In this document: one piece after another, positions 26,689 through 47,111 of the stretch
Numbering within the stretch: position 1 is the stretch's first letter
How the letters are laid out: each line of letters opens with the position of its first letter
Source: Candidatus Rubrimentiphilum sp.
GTDB lineage: Bacteria; Vulcanimicrobiota; Vulcanimicrobiia; Vulcanimicrobiales; Vulcanimicrobiaceae
Reading direction: 5' to 3'
Length of the DNA: 64,000 bases
NCBI GenBank assembly: GCA_035710515.1
Contig: DASTDE010000003.1
Location: 124,001-188,000, forward strand
Program-made: the position numbers and the translations under genes
Notes under the pieces: model-generated
Database searches by the model: none
What the model was told of the DNA's origin: nothing
Seen by the model: the letters and a program-made list of their open reading frames with translations, nothing else

Positions 26689-27927
26689 CTAAATAACGCG
26701 CGCACCGCCGCGATACACCGCGGCCGCAAGATTGCCTCCAAATTGCCAGCCAAATTCTTCAGGCGCGCCGATCTGAAGTGCCACGAAATCGGCCGGATCG
26801 CCCGCGCGCAGGCGGCCGGCGGGTAAGCGCAAGGATTTCGCCGATGCAACCGTCACTCCATACAGCGCTTCTGCCGCGCTCAGCCCGTAGAGCCTGCGCG
26901 CATAGTTCGCAACAGTTTGGAGGTTGAAGCAAGGCGATGTTCCCGGGTTGTAATCGCTCGCGAGAGCAACGGTCCCGCCGCGTTCGAGGATCCGCCGGAC
27001 CGGCGCTCGCTCGGGAAGATCGAGATATGCGGTAGTGGCGGGGCACGCAACCGTCACGATCTCACGCTCGACAATCGCGGCGACGTCCTCTTCACGGATG
27101 TAGTTGCAATGATCGACCGTATCCACGCCGGCCTGCGCAGCCGTCGCCACCGCCCCGCTGTACGACATCTCATCGCAATGCGCGCGCAGGCGCAGGCCTT
27201 GCGAACGCGACGCGTTCAAGTAGCGCAGCGTTTGCGCCGGCGAGAAAAACCCCGGTTCGCAAAATATATCCGCGTTTACAGCCCCATGCGCGCGGGCCTC
27301 GGGCAACACATCCGCGATCAGGTAATCCACATACGCGTCCGCATCATCAAATTCGCTCGGCACCGCATGCGCGCCCAGAAACGTCGCCACCAGCCGCGGC
27401 AGCCCAGGCTCATCGTTGTGTGCGTCGATCAGGTCGAGCATCGCCAACTCGCCGGCTTTCGTCAACGCGTAGCCGGTTTTTACTTCGGCTGTCGTCGTGC
27501 CGTGCGCCAGCATCAGCTTCAAGCGCGCTTCAACTGTCTGCCAAAATGCCTCCGGGTTTTTCAGCGCTTCCCGGGTCTTCTCTACGGTATCCAGCATCGT
27601 TTTGCCGGGTGCGCGCATGCCCGCAAAAAGCGGGTGCGTGTGCGCGTCGACAAAGCCGGGCACGATCACGCAGTCGCGCAGGTCGACGATTTCGATGTGC
27701 GTCCCTTCGACTTCGCTCAGGGGTGGTTCGACAGGCTCACCATGACACTGAGGCGCCCGCTCACCATGACACAGGGAAGCGTCGCCGCCCACGGCGCTAA
27801 TAACGCCGTCGTCGATCAGAATCGCGCCGTCTTTGATCAGGCCGAGCTCTTCAAACGTGATGCCGTTCTGCGGAGCGTCGGTGTCGCAGGTGACGATCGC
27901 TCCGGCGCGGACGAGCGTGCTAGCCAA
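26689..27927 (-). CDS. hutI: Imidazolonepropionase, carrying an in-frame repeat insertion
   Basis: Hydrolyses imidazolonepropionate to formiminoglutamate, third step of histidine degradation. 412 residues, TTG start directly after the hutU stop. Amidohydrolase metal ligands H96 and H98 sit in GFVDAHTHPLFAG, followed by TVEKTREA, HGTTTAEVKTGYAL, and ALASDYNPGTSP near the end. Residues 51-75 (starting SLCHGERAPQ, ending SEVEG) are not part of the family. They are encoded by dispersed repeat R5 in the N-terminal beta-sandwich, just before EIVDLRDCVIVPGF. The reading frame stays open, so the enzyme may still work with a surface loop. Confidence 0.92.
   Translation of the reverse strand: MASTLVRAGAIVTCDTDAPQNGITFEELGLIKDGAILIDDGVISAVGGDASLCHGERAPQCHGEPVEPPLSEVEGTHIEIVDLRDCVIVPGFVDAHTHPLFAGMRAPGKTMLDTVEKTREALKNPEAFWQTVEARLKLMLAHGTTTAEVKTGYALTKAGELAMLDLIDAHNDEPGLPRLVATFLGAHAVPSEFDDADAYVDYLIADVLPEARAHGAVNADIFCEPGFFSPAQTLRYLNASRSQGLRLRAHCDEMSYSGAVATAAQAGVDTVDHCNYIREEDVAAIVEREIVTVACPATTAYLDLPERAPVRRILERGGTVALASDYNPGTSPCFNLQTVANYARRLYGLSAAEALYGVTVASAKSLRLPAGRLRAGDPADFVALQIGAPEEFGWQFGGNLAAAVYRGGARVI
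27704..27773 (+). repeat. Dispersed repeat copy R5, in frame inside hutI
   Basis: Composite copy: CCTTCGACTTCGCTCAGGGG, then GGTTCGACAGGCTCACCATG, then a second GCTCACCATGACAC half-unit. Antisense to hutI it reads CHGERAPQCHGEPVEP. Confidence 0.85.
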
Positions 27928-34897: not shown

Positions 34898-34964
34898 CCC
34901 TCGACTACGCTCGGGCGTGGTTCGACCGGGCGTTCGCAACGCGAACGCCGCTCACCATGACACA
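34898..34964 (+). repeat. Dispersed repeat copy R6 with internal hairpin
   Basis: Arms CCCTCGACTACGCTCGGGCG and GCTCACCATGACAC flank a perfect hairpin GGCGTTCGC-AAC-GCGAACGCC (34929-34949). Lies between the small membrane protein gene and clpC. Confidence 0.8.
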
Positions 34965-38957: not shown

Positions 38958-38999
38958 CCTTCGTTACCTCAGGGTCCTTCGATACCTCAGGATGACAAG
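38958..38999 (+). repeat. Dispersed repeat copy R7, tandem half-units
   Basis: CCTTCGTTACCTCAGGGT followed directly by a 24-base stretch (38976-38999) identical to the copy inside radA. Intergenic, between two small secreted-protein genes. Confidence 0.8.
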
Positions 39000-40603: not shown

Positions 40604-42157
40604 GTGAAGAGCAACCAGGCAAAATACGCGGAGCTGAAGCGCAAGCGCGAGCTGGCGGCTGCGCCGGCCGGGGCCGAGGCGATAGAAAAGCAGCACCATC
40701 GCGGAAAGCGCACGGCCCGCGAGCGTATAGACATCCTGGTCGATGCAAACTCATTTATCGAACTCGATCAGTTCGCCGTACACCGCACGACGGCGTTTGG
40801 GCTTGGCGAACGCGAATTCTTGGGTGACGGCGTCATCACGGGGCGCGCCACTATCGACGGTCGTCAGGTATTTCTCTTTTCGCAGGATTTTACGGTCCTC
40901 GGCGGTTCCCTGGGTGAAGTCTTCGCGGAGAAGATTTGTAAAGTAATGGACCTGGCGCTTCGCACCGGGTCCCCCATGATCGGCATCAACGACTCCGGCG
41001 GCGCCCGCATCCAAGAGGGCGTCGTCAGTTTAGGCGGCTACGCTGAAATCTTTTGGCGTAACGTCCAGGCAAGCGGCGTGATACCGCAGATCAGTTTGAT
41101 CGCCGGACCCTGCGCCGGCGGCGCCGTCTACTCCCCGGCCATAACGGATTTCATCATCATGACCGAGAGCATCGGACAGATGTTTATAACCGGACCGGAG
41201 ATAATCAAAACCGTCACTGGCGAAACAGTCACCTTCGACGAGCTCGGCGGGGCGACGACGCACGCCACCAAGAGCGGCGTCGCGCACCTGGTTGCGGCCG
41301 ACGAAGACGAGATGACGGAGCTCACCAAGACGCTGCTCTCGTACTTGCCGCCGAACAACCTGGACGACCCGCCCCGCTATTCCAGCGACGACGACCCCCA
41401 ACGGCTCGTCACCGAACTCGACGGCGTGGTGCCGGACTCTCCGAATAAACCCTACGACATGCACGATGTCATCGGCCCGGTGCTGGACGACGGCGATTTT
41501 TTCGAAATACAGCCGCTCTACGCGCAAAACATCATCGTCGGCTTCGGGCGCGTAAACGGTCAAAGCGTCGGCATCGTCGCCAATCAGCCCAACGTCTTGG
41601 CAGGCGTCCTGGACATCAAGAGTTCGATCAAGGCGGCGCGGTTCGTACGGTTTTGCGACGCGTTCAATATTCCACTCGTAACGTTCGTCGACGTCCCGGG
41701 TTTCTTGCCGGGAACCGATCAGGAGTACGGCGGCATCATCACGCACGGCGCCAAACTGCTCTATGCTTTCGCCGAAGCGACAGTGCCGAAGATTACGATC
41801 ATCACGCGCAAAGCGTATGGCGGCGCGTATGACGTGATGGCGAGCAAGCACATTCGGGCGGACGTCAACGTCGCATGGCCAACCGCCGAGATTGCCGTCA
41901 TGGGCGCCGAGAGTGCGGTCAAGACGATCTTCAAGCGCGAACTGGCGGCGGCCAAAGATCAAGACGCCAAGATGCAAGAACTCGTCGAAAACTACCGCGA
42001 ACGCTTCGACAATCCGTTCATTGCGGCGGAGCGCGGCTACGTGGACGACGTCGTCGAGGCGCACATGACGCGGCGGGTTATCGCCAAGTCGCTCGACATG
42101 CTCGCCAACAAGCGTGTCGACCGGCCGAAACGCAAACACGGCAACATTCCGCTGTAG
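40604..42157 (+). CDS. pccB: Acyl-CoA carboxylase carboxyltransferase (propionyl-CoA carboxylase beta type)
   Basis: 517 residues, GTG start. Transfers carboxyl from carboxybiotin to propionyl-CoA (or acetyl-CoA). Both halves of the carboxyltransferase are present: [22 protein letters not shown], then [20 protein letters not shown] and [16 protein letters not shown]. The C-terminal half has [47 protein letters not shown]. The neighbouring mutase and epimerase genes point to propionyl-CoA as substrate. TAGGAG upstream lies rather far from the GTG. Its biotin-carrying partner is encoded about 1.6 kb downstream. Confidence 0.93.
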
Positions 42158-42823: not shown

Positions 42824-43603
42824 ATGAGCTTATTAAAAGGAAAGCGCGCGCTGGTCACGGGTGTGGCCAATCAATGGTCTATCGCCACCGGGATAGCGCG
42901 GCAGATGCACGAGCACGGCGCCCAGATCGCCTTCACCTATCAGGGCGAGCGCGTCAAAGAGCAAGTCGAGAAGATCGCGGCCGAGCTGGGCGGCGGCCCG
43001 GTCATTGAGTGCGACGTCTCCAGCGACGAGTCGCTGGCGCGGCTGGCGCCCGCACTTGCCGGTTTCGGAAAACTCGACGTGGTCGTACATTCGATCGCAT
43101 TCGCGAATAAGGACGACCTAGCGGGAAAGGTCTACGACACGTCGCGCGCGGGCTTCAGCCTTTCGCTCGACGTCTCCGCATATTCGCTTATCGCGCTCGT
43201 GCAGGCGCTGCGCGAGCAGATCGCGGACGGCGGCTCGATCATGGCGCTCACGTATTTGGGCGCGACGGCCATCGTTCCGAACTACAATCTCATGGGCATC
43301 GCAAAAGCGGCGCTCGAAGCGTCGGTGCGTTACTTGGCTTTCGATTTGGGTGACCGCGGCATTCGCGTCAACGCAATCTCGGCCGGCCCAATTAAAACCG
43401 CGAGCGCGCGGCAAGTCGCCGGGCTTTCGAAGATGCTCGAAGTCTGCGCGGCGACGGCGCCGCTAAAGCGCAACGTCACCACGGACGACATCGGCAAAGC
43501 AGCGGTCTTTCTCGCCTCGGATCTTTCGGCAGCGGTCACCGCGGACGTGCACTTTGTGGACGGCGGCTTTCACGCGATGGGGATGTACCCGCCGCCGCAA
43601 TGA
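42824..43603 (+). CDS. fabI: Enoyl-[acyl-carrier-protein] reductase
   Basis: Last reduction step of fatty-acid chain elongation, NADH-dependent. 259 residues. GVANQWSIATGIARQ is the FabI variant of the Rossmann glycine motif; the catalytic pair Y-x6-K appears as YNLMGIAKAALEASVRYLA. AISAGPIKTASARQVAGL and FVDGGFHAMGM close the fold. Within the module it could supply reduced acyl chains, but the link with propionyl-CoA genes is probably operon convenience. ATGA overlap with the next small gene. Confidence 0.94.
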   Translation: MSLLKGKRALVTGVANQWSIATGIARQMHEHGAQIAFTYQGERVKEQVEKIAAELGGGPVIECDVSSDESLARLAPALAGFGKLDVVVHSIAFANKDDLAGKVYDTSRAGFSLSLDVSAYSLIALVQALREQIADGGSIMALTYLGATAIVPNYNLMGIAKAALEASVRYLAFDLGDRGIRVNAISAGPIKTASARQVAGLSKMLEVCAATAPLKRNVTTDDIGKAAVFLASDLSAAVTADVHFVDGGFHAMGMYPPPQ

Positions 43604-43782
43604 GCGACGACGACATTCTGGCGATCGTCGCCGCGCTGGAGTTCGTAGCGTCGCGTGACGAGGCGGCTCCTCCAAAATCACGTTGGAAGTTAATGTGTCA
43701 TGGTGAGCTTGTCGAACCACGCTCGAGCGATGCGCGGTACGCGCAGCAGACGAGAGAGCGCACTACGTGGAAAAACTCTTAG
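43600..43782 (+). CDS. Small acyl-CoA carboxylase-associated (epsilon-like) protein with repeat-derived tail
   Basis: 60 residues. The first 31 (MSDDDILAIVAALEFVASRD to SRWKL) resemble the short AccE/epsilon-like subunits encoded beside carboxylase genes, with the ILAIVAALE helix and a terminal SRWK. From residue 32 on, CHGELVEPRSSDAR is encoded by repeat R8 and the rest by unrelated sequence, so the natural C-terminus was probably replaced. It starts in an ATGA overlap with fabI and overlaps the biotin carboxylase gene by 16 bases. Function by context only. Confidence 0.55.
   Translation: MSDDDILAIVAALEFVASRDEAAPPKSRWKLMCHGELVEPRSSDARYAQQTRERTTWKNS
43696..43727 (-). repeat. Dispersed repeat copy R8 at the 3' half of the epsilon-like gene
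   Basis: Minus orientation. Plus strand reads TGTCATGGTGAGCTTGTCGA followed by ACCACGCTCGAG. It encodes CHGELVEPRSS in frame. Confidence 0.8.
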
Positions 43783-45533
43783 TCGCCAACCGCGGCGAGA
43801 TCGCGGTGCGCGTGATTCGTACGGCGCGCGAGATGGGCTTGCAAACGGTCGCGGTGTACTCGGAGATCGATCGCGATGCGACGCACGTTCGCTTAGCCGA
43901 CGAAGCGTATTTGCTGGGACCGGCGAGTCCGACGCTCAGTTATTTGAACGTCGAACGCATTCTGGACATCGCGCGACGCTCCGGTGCGCAAGCCATTCAT
44001 CCTGGCTACGGTTTTTTGGCAGAAAATGCCGCATTTGCGCGGTCGGTAAACGAGGCAGGCTTGACGTGGATCGGACCGCACCCCGATGCCATCGACGCGA
44101 TGGGTGACAAGATGCGCGCGCGGCAAGCAATGATCGCGGCCGGCGTTCCGGTCGTCCCGGGCGGTACTGAAGTTATCGCAGATGTGGCCGCGGCGCGAAA
44201 GGCAGCCGAAAAATATGGCCTGCCGCTCGCGCTCAAAGCGTCGGGCGGCGGCGGAGGCAAAGGATTGAAAGTCGCCTATACGGTCGATGAACTCGCATCC
44301 GCGCTTTCGACCGCGCAGCGCGAAGCCGAGGCGTATTTCAAGAATGGCGCGATCTACGCCGAACGCTACTTGGCGAATCCCAAGCATATCGAGCTGCAGA
44401 TTGTGGCGGACAAGCATGGCAACGTGCTGCACGCCGGCGAGCGCGATTGTTCGCTGCAGCGGAGGCATCAAAAGCTCTGGGAAGAGGCGCCCTCAGGCGT
44501 GGCGCAACGCGTGCGCGAGGGAATTCGCGAAGCCGGCGTCCTGGCCGCAAAAGCCATCGCGTACGACAGCGTCGGGACGATCGAGTGGCTGGTCAGCGGC
44601 GACGAGTTTTATTTCCTTGAGATGAACACGCGCATTCAAGTCGAGCACACGGTGACGGAAATGATCACCGGCCTCGACCTGATCCGCGAACAGATCCGCG
44701 CCGCCTCCGGTGAGCCGTTGGAATATGCGCAAGACGCCATCAGCTTTCGCGGCCATTCAATCGAAGGTCGCGTCAACGCCGAAGATCCATCGCACGATTT
44801 TCGCCCGGCGCCCGGCACAATTTCCGCTTACCGCGAACCAGGCGGTTTGGGCGTCCGCATCGACTCCGCAGCGTTTCCCGGCTTTACCATCGGGGCAGAC
44901 TACGACTCGCTGATCGCTAAACTCGTAGTATGGGCGCCGACTCGTGACGAAGCGCTCGCGCGCTTCCGCCGCGCGCTCGACGAGTATCACATCGAGGGCG
45001 TGCCGACGACGTTACCGCTGTTGCGCGATCTCTGCGACCATCCGCCGGTTATGGACGGCACATACACGACCTCTACCCTCGAAACATTCGCAGCCAAGCG
45101 TTATGCTACCGATCGGACGGATTTCACCAGTGTCATGGTGAGCTCGTCGAACCACCCCGAGCAGGGCGCCGTAGGCGCCCGTGACGAGGGGCGCTCCGAA
45201 AACATCACCGTTGAAGTCAACGACAAGCTCTATCACGTCCGGTTATTTAATCGGCCGTCGGCAAACGCGGCTCGGAAAGCGCCGCGCGCTGGGCGCAACA
45301 ATCGAAAGGTCACCGCAAGCGGTGACGACGTCGTCTCACCGATGCACGGAGTCGTCGTGGAAATGCCTGTTAGCGAAGGCGATAGCGTTACGGCCGGCCA
45401 GGTAGTCGCAGTAGTCGAAGCGATGAAGATGATGAACGAGATCCGCGCGCACAAAGCCGGTACGGTAGCGAGGGTACTCGTCAAACCAGGCGAAACAGTG
45501 GAATCACATTCAGCTCTTGCAACGATCCAATAA
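43767..45533 (+). CDS. pccA: Acetyl/propionyl-CoA carboxylase alpha subunit (biotin carboxylase plus biotin carrier)
   Basis: 588 residues, GTG start. Biotin carboxylase domain to about residue 445: KLLVANRGEIAVRVIR, the ATP-grasp glycine loop KASGGGGGKGLKV, and FLEMNTRIQVEHTVTE. C-terminal biotinyl domain with the biotin lysine K554 in VEAMKMMNE. Between them residues 455-475 (starting SVMVSSSNHP) are encoded by dispersed repeat R9, extending the linker. Together with pccB it would carboxylate propionyl-CoA. The stop is directly followed by the mutase gene. Confidence 0.94.
   Translation: MEKLLVANRGEIAVRVIRTAREMGLQTVAVYSEIDRDATHVRLADEAYLLGPASPTLSYLNVERILDIARRSGAQAIHPGYGFLAENAAFARSVNEAGLTWIGPHPDAIDAMGDKMRARQAMIAAGVPVVPGGTEVIADVAAARKAAEKYGLPLALKASGGGGGKGLKVAYTVDELASALSTAQREAEAYFKNGAIYAERYLANPKHIELQIVADKHGNVLHAGERDCSLQRRHQKLWEEAPSGVAQRVREGIREAGVLAAKAIAYDSVGTIEWLVSGDEFYFLEMNTRIQVEHTVTEMITGLDLIREQIRAASGEPLEYAQDAISFRGHSIEGRVNAEDPSHDFRPAPGTISAYREPGGLGVRIDSAAFPGFTIGADYDSLIAKLVVWAPTRDEALARFRRALDEYHIEGVPTTLPLLRDLCDHPPVMDGTYTTSTLETFAAKRYATDRTDFTSVMVSSSNHPEQGAVGARDEGRSENITVEVNDKLYHVRLFNRPSANAARKAPRAGRNNRKVTASGDDVVSPMHGVVVEMPVSEGDSVTAGQVVAVVEAMKMMNEIRAHKAGTVARVLVKPGETVESHSALATIQ
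45131..45190 (-). repeat. Dispersed repeat copy R9, in frame inside pccA
   Basis: TGTCATGGTGAGCTCGTCGA, then ACCACCCCGAGCAG, then a perfect hairpin GGGCGCC-GTA-GGCGCCC (45164-45180). Lies in the linker between the carboxylase and biotin-carrier domains. Confidence 0.85.

Positions 45534-47110
<1,577 letters not shown>

Positions 47111-47111
<1 letters not shown>

Follow-up and report, generated by a model that had tools for sequence, protein, structure and literature searches.

A REP-like palindromic element in the linker of a biotin-dependent carboxylase of a Candidatus Eremiobacterota bacterium

Results

Host gene and linker

Positions 45129-45194 of the analysed window (a stretch of 64,000 nucleotides) are, by our estimate with a probability of about 0.85, a copy of a non-autonomous mobile palindrome of the REP/RPE-like kind, nearly neutral in a tolerant protein linker and with a hairpin kept by the mobility of the element itself. 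The window is part of the 2.54-Mb assembly of a soil bacterium of the Candidatus Eremiobacterota. The sequence of the element, SVMVSSSNHPEQGAVGARDEGR (plus strand), encodes residues 455-476 of a biotin-dependent carboxylase, whose reading frame stays open throughout. The initial annotation had noticed a repeat at 45131-45190, and the repeat is real: positions 45130-45155 are 96% identical to 43695-43720, and the 24-nt core GTCATGGTGAGCYTGTCGAACCAC occurs in 30 copies in the assembly at up to 3 mismatches, versus none for the reversed control. Only its bounds needed correction, the alignment with the 29 other genomic copies making the element slightly longer.

The host gene, pccA (43767-45533, plus strand, GTG start, 588 amino acids), codes for a biotin carboxylase (BC) joined to a biotin carrier protein, as follows from the ORF, from Pfam (Biotin_carb_N, CPSase_L_D2, Biotin_carb_C up to residue 439 and Biotin_lipoyl at 521-587) and from a full-length relative in the PDB (5mlk). 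We label it as AccA3/PccA type because the PDB entries that match it over the full length (5mlk and the 30hu/9yx group) are chains of the AccA3 type; with the longer PccA chains the match is confined to the BC part. Its closest named relatives, among the matches listed, come mostly from Candidatus Eremiobacterota MAGs. A carboxyltransferase gene (40604-42157) is located upstream, with two ORFs in between, and a methylmalonyl-CoA mutase gene (45534-47111) directly downstream; the neighbouring genes suggest propionyl-CoA as the substrate.

In an AlphaFold2 model (30 sequences) pLDDT is below 50 at residues 451-481 and 492-517, on both sides of a beta-hairpin (479-492), and residues 455-476 belong to a stretch predicted as disordered. 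The element is thus placed before the predicted beta-hairpin, which in turn precedes the carrier domain. It had been described as lying exactly between the two domains of the enzyme; between Biotin_carb_C (end at 439) and Biotin_lipoyl (start at 521) it does lie, but not exactly, as the beta-hairpin also intervenes. In four other PccA sequences (L084, L086, L096 and L100) no VEVN..VR beta-hairpin is recognisable between the linker and the carrier domain.

The comparison of linker lengths in orthologues, proposed by the initial annotation, was based on an alignment of PccA from 60 relatives (30 loci fetched) and from 48 of 80 named loci, the remaining 32 being nearly all more distant carboxylases. 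Two of 71 sequences (L110 and L111) had no anchor and were dropped from the module scans, and at least five of the 69 kept are second records of one gene (zero-length pairs in the tree); five more were dropped from the length test, having no beta-strand anchor. In the 64 sequences that stayed, the length proved variable: 24-43 amino acids in the 55 sequences without a strict module (stem of 3 + Y-R), four of which have weaker hits, versus 29-53 in the nine with it (p = 3e-4). The ranges overlap, and the host linker (40 amino acids) is within the range of those without the module. The suggestion that extra length is harmless here fits the variability of the linker, the predicted disorder, and the different repeats found in other species.

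Structure of the element

The element consists of AGTGTCAT, two hairpin modules and a terminal CGC. Module 1 (45136-45154), TGGTGAGCTCGTCGAACCA, is a stem with TGAG/CGAA tandem G-A boxes. Module 2 (45155-45191), CCCCGAGCA-inner hairpin-GTGACGAGGGG, has a stem CCC-C/G-GGG round CGAG/CGAG, and its first C is common to the end of the core. Both modules were delimited by module scans, the second one also by the covariation of its stem in the 30 copies. The consensus of the unit is TGTCAT, followed by module 1 (GGTGAGC-YTG-TCGAACC) and module 2 (NNN-YGAGC-middle-CGAR-N'N'N'), often with CGC after them. Both modules follow one general form, with a short loop or a variable inner hairpin between the boxes, and both keep the YGAG/CGAR boxes, i.e., a tandem G-A mismatch inside the stem, a motif named PyGAPu and stable in DNA.

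The perfect hairpin GGGCGCC-GTA-GGCGCCC, which had been reported initially, was confirmed at 45164-45180, where it forms the inner hairpin of module 2. Its pattern has no other exact match in the window and is found at one further place with 1 mismatch, 0.09 being expected at that tolerance. A bare 7-bp hairpin is nevertheless unremarkable, since perfect stems of 7 bp or more, closed by loops of 3-5 nt, number 45 in the window (some of them nested, and counted with no shuffle control); significance comes from membership in the family. The folding of 70 nt is no better than that of shuffles for RNA (z = -0.73) and only mildly better for DNA (z = -1.63). A known RNA family was rejected, as no Rfam covariance model matched 43500-45700 up to an E-value of 1.

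All 30 copies open with TGTCAT. The middle of module 2 is 5-6 nt long in 16 copies and 14-24 nt in the other 14, only 10 of which have an inner stem of at least 5 bp; the summed inner-stem length of these 14 long middles is 76, versus a mean of 46 and a maximum of 57 after shuffling. In the outer stem of module 2 the sequence changes across copies while the pairing is kept: pairing is full in 27 of the 30 copies, with 12 different 5' stems, versus 6.0 on average and at most 15 in 20,000 rounds of reassigning the 3' arms at random (the 3' box had been picked beforehand for best pairing, which biases the test somewhat toward pairing). The inner arm is variable between copies, and a copy at C1:901878 has the same arms as that in pccA with another loop (GGGCGCC-GCT-GGCGCCC), so that the GC hairpin is a variable part of the element and not an invention of pccA.

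Copies in the window and near start codons

The window contains 11 structured matches (some overlapping) versus 0.06 expected. The second copy (43695-43761, plus strand), whose outer stem is only 2/3 paired, lies just upstream of the start codon of pccA (43767). A further copy (27706-27747, minus strand), preceded by a partial one (the two together span 27706-27771), is situated in frame in an amidohydrolase gene (26689-27927), and a relative of the element (TGTCATGGTGAGC-hairpin-GTCGAA; 34921-34962, minus strand) is at the 5' end of a 107-aa ORF. Two CC-type relatives, TGTCATCCTGAGGTATCGAAGG, on the minus strand at 1136-1163 and 38972-38999, are 96% identical over 28 nt at a distance of 37.8 kb.

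A truncated TGTCAT..TGAGC piece is found 5' of 12 of the 30 copies, versus a mean of 0.57 and a maximum of 5 in shuffled flanks and 1 in the downstream control.

As to the position relative to genes, seven of the 30 copies end at most 15 nt from the start codon of an ORF that looks coding and lies on their own strand, a count made without a control. The copy 43695-43761 is one of them, occupying this position before pccA itself (43695-43766), and another example of a 3' module ending just before a start codon is CGAGGGCCGCATG in L024. Since the 3' module often abuts the start codon, its GAGG could act as a ribosome-binding site.

Copies inside conserved genes and turnover at the same sites

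According to codon statistics and reading frames, seven of the 30 copies are in frame within conserved genes, in either of two forward frames or in reverse. The hosts are PccA, NAD-dependent DNA ligase, a short-chain fatty acid transporter, an amidohydrolase, a class I tRNA synthetase, an AIR-synthase-related protein and a ZnuA-type protein; the amidohydrolase was read as HutI-like, the synthetase as IleRS and the AIR-synthase-related protein as PurL, Pfam giving the wider family in each case. The forward frames yield the peptides VMVS(L/P/S)SNH or CHGEPVEP, and the copy in the ZnuA-type protein, which is in reverse orientation, reads VVRQAHHD. L012, which has the element at residue 15 of a 444-aa ORF, was left out of this count, the start of that ORF being unsure.

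A repeat-coded linker was found in all six genus genomes with a full-length pccA, i.e., the host and five congeners, G004 having two copies of the gene; in G002, alone among the seven genus genomes, no full-length pccA was found. The linkers of the host, of G001 and G005 (at one site) and of G004 contain GG-type two-module elements, those of G003 and G006 CC-type double modules, and that of the second G004 copy a single module. In the latter three the first module is of the CC or TC type and is read in a different frame. Outside the genus, modules are present in the linkers of G007, G033, G015, L083 and L085, mostly in reverse orientation. The closest PccA relatives of the host are 78-84% identical to it, and there was no near-identical strain with an empty site among them; no target-site duplication was established, the flanks being too diverged.

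The strict scan of PccA genes, which replaced an earlier looser one with high background (15 hits in linkers, 34 elsewhere), found 20 modules in 17,142 nt of linker regions versus 5 in 101,511 nt elsewhere, with 3 and 1 hits, respectively, for the decoy. Limited to a stem of 3 + Y-R, it gave 14 hits in linkers and 4 elsewhere, and none in either for the decoy. Linker modules occur in 13 of the 69 sequences, those of L055 and L098 looking like GC-rich chance. In the PccA tree (66 rows) these two were left unlabelled and 12 rows were labelled, including L046, L083 and L085 from the scan and L075 by eye, as the scan ignores the T-G pair in its stem. The presence of a module requires five changes on this tree, at least three of them forced by well-supported branches, and five to six over the bootstrap trees; the sequence tree thus indicates that the modules in PccA of other genera were gained separately from those of the genus, whose seven rows form one clade.

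Different repeats are found at one site by species in three other genes as well. In LigA (six of the seven genus genomes) a single codon position carries full, doubled, tandem-partial and almost empty versions. At the IleRS site (six genomes, the partial gene of G003 being left out) the elements are of the CC or GG type, with matching changes in the two arms, or the element is truncated. At the PurL site (five of the seven genomes) the orientation differs, some genomes having forward elements and others reverse ones. For each of the four genes compared in the genus, a given loop or linker thus holds repeats that differ from one species to another, apparently without harm.

Distribution in the phylum and in viruses

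Of 149 genomes from the phylum, 18 contain the GG-type core (at most 1 mismatch); each of the seven genus genomes has 13-28 copies of it, and G104 has 43. A broader pattern, TGTCATNNYGAGC..CGAR, gave 144 matches in the host genome and was found in 106 of the 149 genomes, with 0-576 matches each (overlapping matches are counted more than once), versus 0-2 per strand in the reversed controls. Counts are very high in G104 (576) and in G144 (512), the latter from a distant family of the phylum, the other seven members of which have 0-1 matches.

Among the 30 genomes with a fetched PccA locus, the median of this broad count is 115 in the nine genomes with a linker module and 2 in the 21 without (p = 1.3e-5); six of the nine belong to one genus, and with a single genome for the genus p is 0.0014. 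G025 (60 matches) and G035 (55) are rich in repeats and have no linker module. The initial annotation regarded a uniform presence of this linker in phyla lacking the repeat as an argument against its proposal. A linker of at least 24 amino acids is indeed present in 64 of the 64 relatives measured, yet the repeat-coded linkers track the repeat-rich genomes.

The exact core was also found in six IMG/VR viral contigs (L171-L176) with a GC content of 0.39-0.49, which shows that the motif reaches beyond this phylum. Four of them share one virus-like flank, and CACACTGAG..CGAAGTGTG stands beside one copy; in L171 the ATG of a 657-aa ORF is supplied by a copy or adjoins it. The two contigs with inverted motifs 4,269 nt apart represent one virus (a single match of 10,115 nt at 100%). 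These inverted motifs were rejected as an autonomous transposon, being single modules between or at genes in low-GC DNA.

Discussion

Maintenance of the hairpin

We suppose that the element lands widely in the genome and becomes visible within genes only where it leaves the reading frame open and the protein can accommodate it. Like REPs, it would be recognised as a hairpin in a single strand, and its copies would spread, or be renewed, in the form of structured single strands of DNA or RNA; the hairpin would persist for this reason and not because pccA needs it. In the PccA linker the element probably survives because it does little harm, there being no stop codon in frame and the linker being disordered according to the model and tolerant of length. 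The data show the family, the variation that keeps its structure, the position in frame, the variable linker and the species-specific repeats at one site; neutrality, mobility as the cause and recognition in a single strand are inferred, and the fact that each of the six pccA-bearing genus genomes has a repeat in this gene could also point to retention for use.

As for the mobilising enzyme, a profile search for the Y1_Tnp transposase gave no hits in any of the seven genus genomes (one of them, G003, has a completeness of only 56%), and a resident Y1 enzyme as the mobiliser is therefore unsupported. The same search gave hits in 15 of 60 relatives, including G026 (32 broad-pattern matches) and G055 (15), and detected the transposase in 5 of 14 known genomes used as a control. 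An RVT_1 reverse transcriptase is likewise unsupported in the genus, none being found in its seven genomes; two of 41 genomes, G015 and G023, both outside the genus, have one.

The simplest alternative, chance hairpin and chance similarity, might appeal to the abundance of perfect stems in the window, but the 30 copies against an empty reversed control, the excess of structured matches in the window and the covariation of the stem leave it a practically negligible probability, and we reject it. The hairpin might instead be kept in pccA because it slows ribosomes, an effect proposed in the initial annotation, and so gives the BC domain time to fold ahead of carrier-domain synthesis. The hairpin is perfect, and the host linker is the second most stable 40-nt window of the 288 in the gene; rank 4 is reached in G006 and G033. 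However, the ranks are 24, 12, 16 and 13 in the other congeners, 43 in G007, 125 in G015 and 7-50 in six relatives lacking the module, so that there is no conserved strong structure and the proposal does not hold as a conserved role. The same type of hairpin is, moreover, found in intergenic copies and inside unrelated genes, and we consider this explanation improbable. The splitting of translation into two domains, suggested along with it, found no support either: residues 476-500 contain no in-frame ATG, GTG or TTG codon, and no start codon follows GAGGGG up to residue 500. The element does carry an in-frame ATG GTG (residues 457-458), and the 24 nt before it contain no GGAGG-like sequence; an internal start for the carrier half is thus unsupported by the sequence, if still conceivable. 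Hardly more probable is that the insert tunes the enzyme by altering the reach of the carrier domain. Linkers with the strict module are longer in the test given above, but the two ranges overlap and the inserted peptides vary by species; the linkers of G001 and G005 are only 30 and 29 amino acids long, respectively, and consist mostly of the repeat, which thus replaces linker sequence and does not lengthen it.

A more serious alternative, to which we nevertheless give well under even odds, is that the genus acquired the element once, in its ancestor, and that this insertion has since drifted, with compensatory changes in place, and was never replaced. The elements of G001 and G005 share site and frame and differ by a C-G to T-A change that keeps the inner stem (GCGCGC/GCGCGC versus GCGTGC/GCACGC); the genus sequences are alike downstream of the repeat up to SVEVN, and their seven PccA rows form one clade. 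On the other hand, the differing first module and frame in G003, G006 and the second G004 copy, the opposite orientations at the one PurL site and the separate gains in other genera are difficult to reconcile with it. We therefore prefer a mobile palindrome that is nearly neutral in its linker, and from this reading a bolder picture may tentatively be drawn, which we regard as doubtful: loops and linkers of housekeeping enzymes would be standing landing sites, where a non-Y1 machinery recognising YGAG/CGAR hairpins keeps swapping elements at the same codon, so that these linkers would evolve largely by exchange and not by point mutation, the TGTCAT..TGAGC half-copies being left 5' of new arrivals.

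Relation to known repeats

The closest parallel is the CGTC-tagged REP super-family (Di Nocera et al., 2013; PMC3733652), described with a CGTC, TGTC or CCTC tag, TGTC being a stated variant of CGTC, a stem of 8-9 bp starting with A and T, a loop of 4-5 nt and a 3-nt tail, mostly CCA. According to the same description, REPs occupy about the same site in recB of X. campestris and X. oryzae, and their hosts include DNA ligase and tRNA synthetases. The present family resembles these REPs in the TGTC tag of all 30 copies, the A/T stem start (in the copy 45129-45194 the first stem A faces C), the number of copies (tens) and the units inside genes, reported there for several species. The CGTC REPs are described as having no dedicated transposase; here the lack of a hit in 7 of 7 genus genomes covers the Y1_Tnp family only. 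In contrast to CGTC REPs as described, the stem is broken by a GA/GA box and is followed by a second module with a variable inner hairpin, and the host phylum is not among the five named there for CGTC repeats. A CCA tail is less clear: ACCAC or ACCAT comes after CGA, with CCA within the presumed stem.

Rickettsia palindromic elements, according to the accounts available (PMC2229807, PMC3733652), are single long stem-loops of 105-146 bp located in frame in conserved genes, and a gmk product with such an insert was reported to be active with a changed substrate affinity (PMC2229807). The in-frame insertion in conserved genes is common to both, whereas the present element is about 66 nt long, consists of two short modules and belongs to an unrelated phylum. 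With the GTAG REPs/REPINs and their RAYT transposases, as outlined in PMC3733652 (see also PMC3116915 and PMC3686654), it shares short imperfect hairpins, a fixed tag, dispersal and presumed mobility, but its tag is TGTC and not GTAG, and the Y1_Tnp search found no such gene in the genus. Enterobacterial RU repeats carrying ORFs (Delihas, 2007; PMC2759123) are also small repeats in frame in genes; in that account, however, they measure 103-168 bp and are described for enterobacteria. We therefore file the element as a new variant of REP-like palindromes, outside both CGTC REPs and RPE. A literature search in open-licence papers, extended to Eremiobacterota repeats and Caulobacter-type intragenic palindromes, gave no report of this element among the top-ranking matches; a full-text search for the motif strings gave no match either, which is no proof, since short DNA strings may be poorly indexed.

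Palindromic repeats in frame have been described before in Rickettsia and in certain REP-rich bacteria (PMC2229807, PMC3733652). What is new here is the two-hairpin design with tandem G-A boxes, combined with the lack of Y1 transposase hits in the genus and with turnover at the same sites. For genome annotation the family carries a warning: what looks like a conserved motif, such as VMVSLSNHPEQ, CHGEPVEP or VRQAHHD, can be a translated repeat. The family also poses a clear search problem for the mobiliser and marks sites where insertions are tolerated in LigA, IleRS, PurL and an acyl-CoA carboxylase. With seven genomes of one genus carrying a related family, and orthologous loops that resemble recurrent landing sites, it offers a natural experiment on how protein linkers change.
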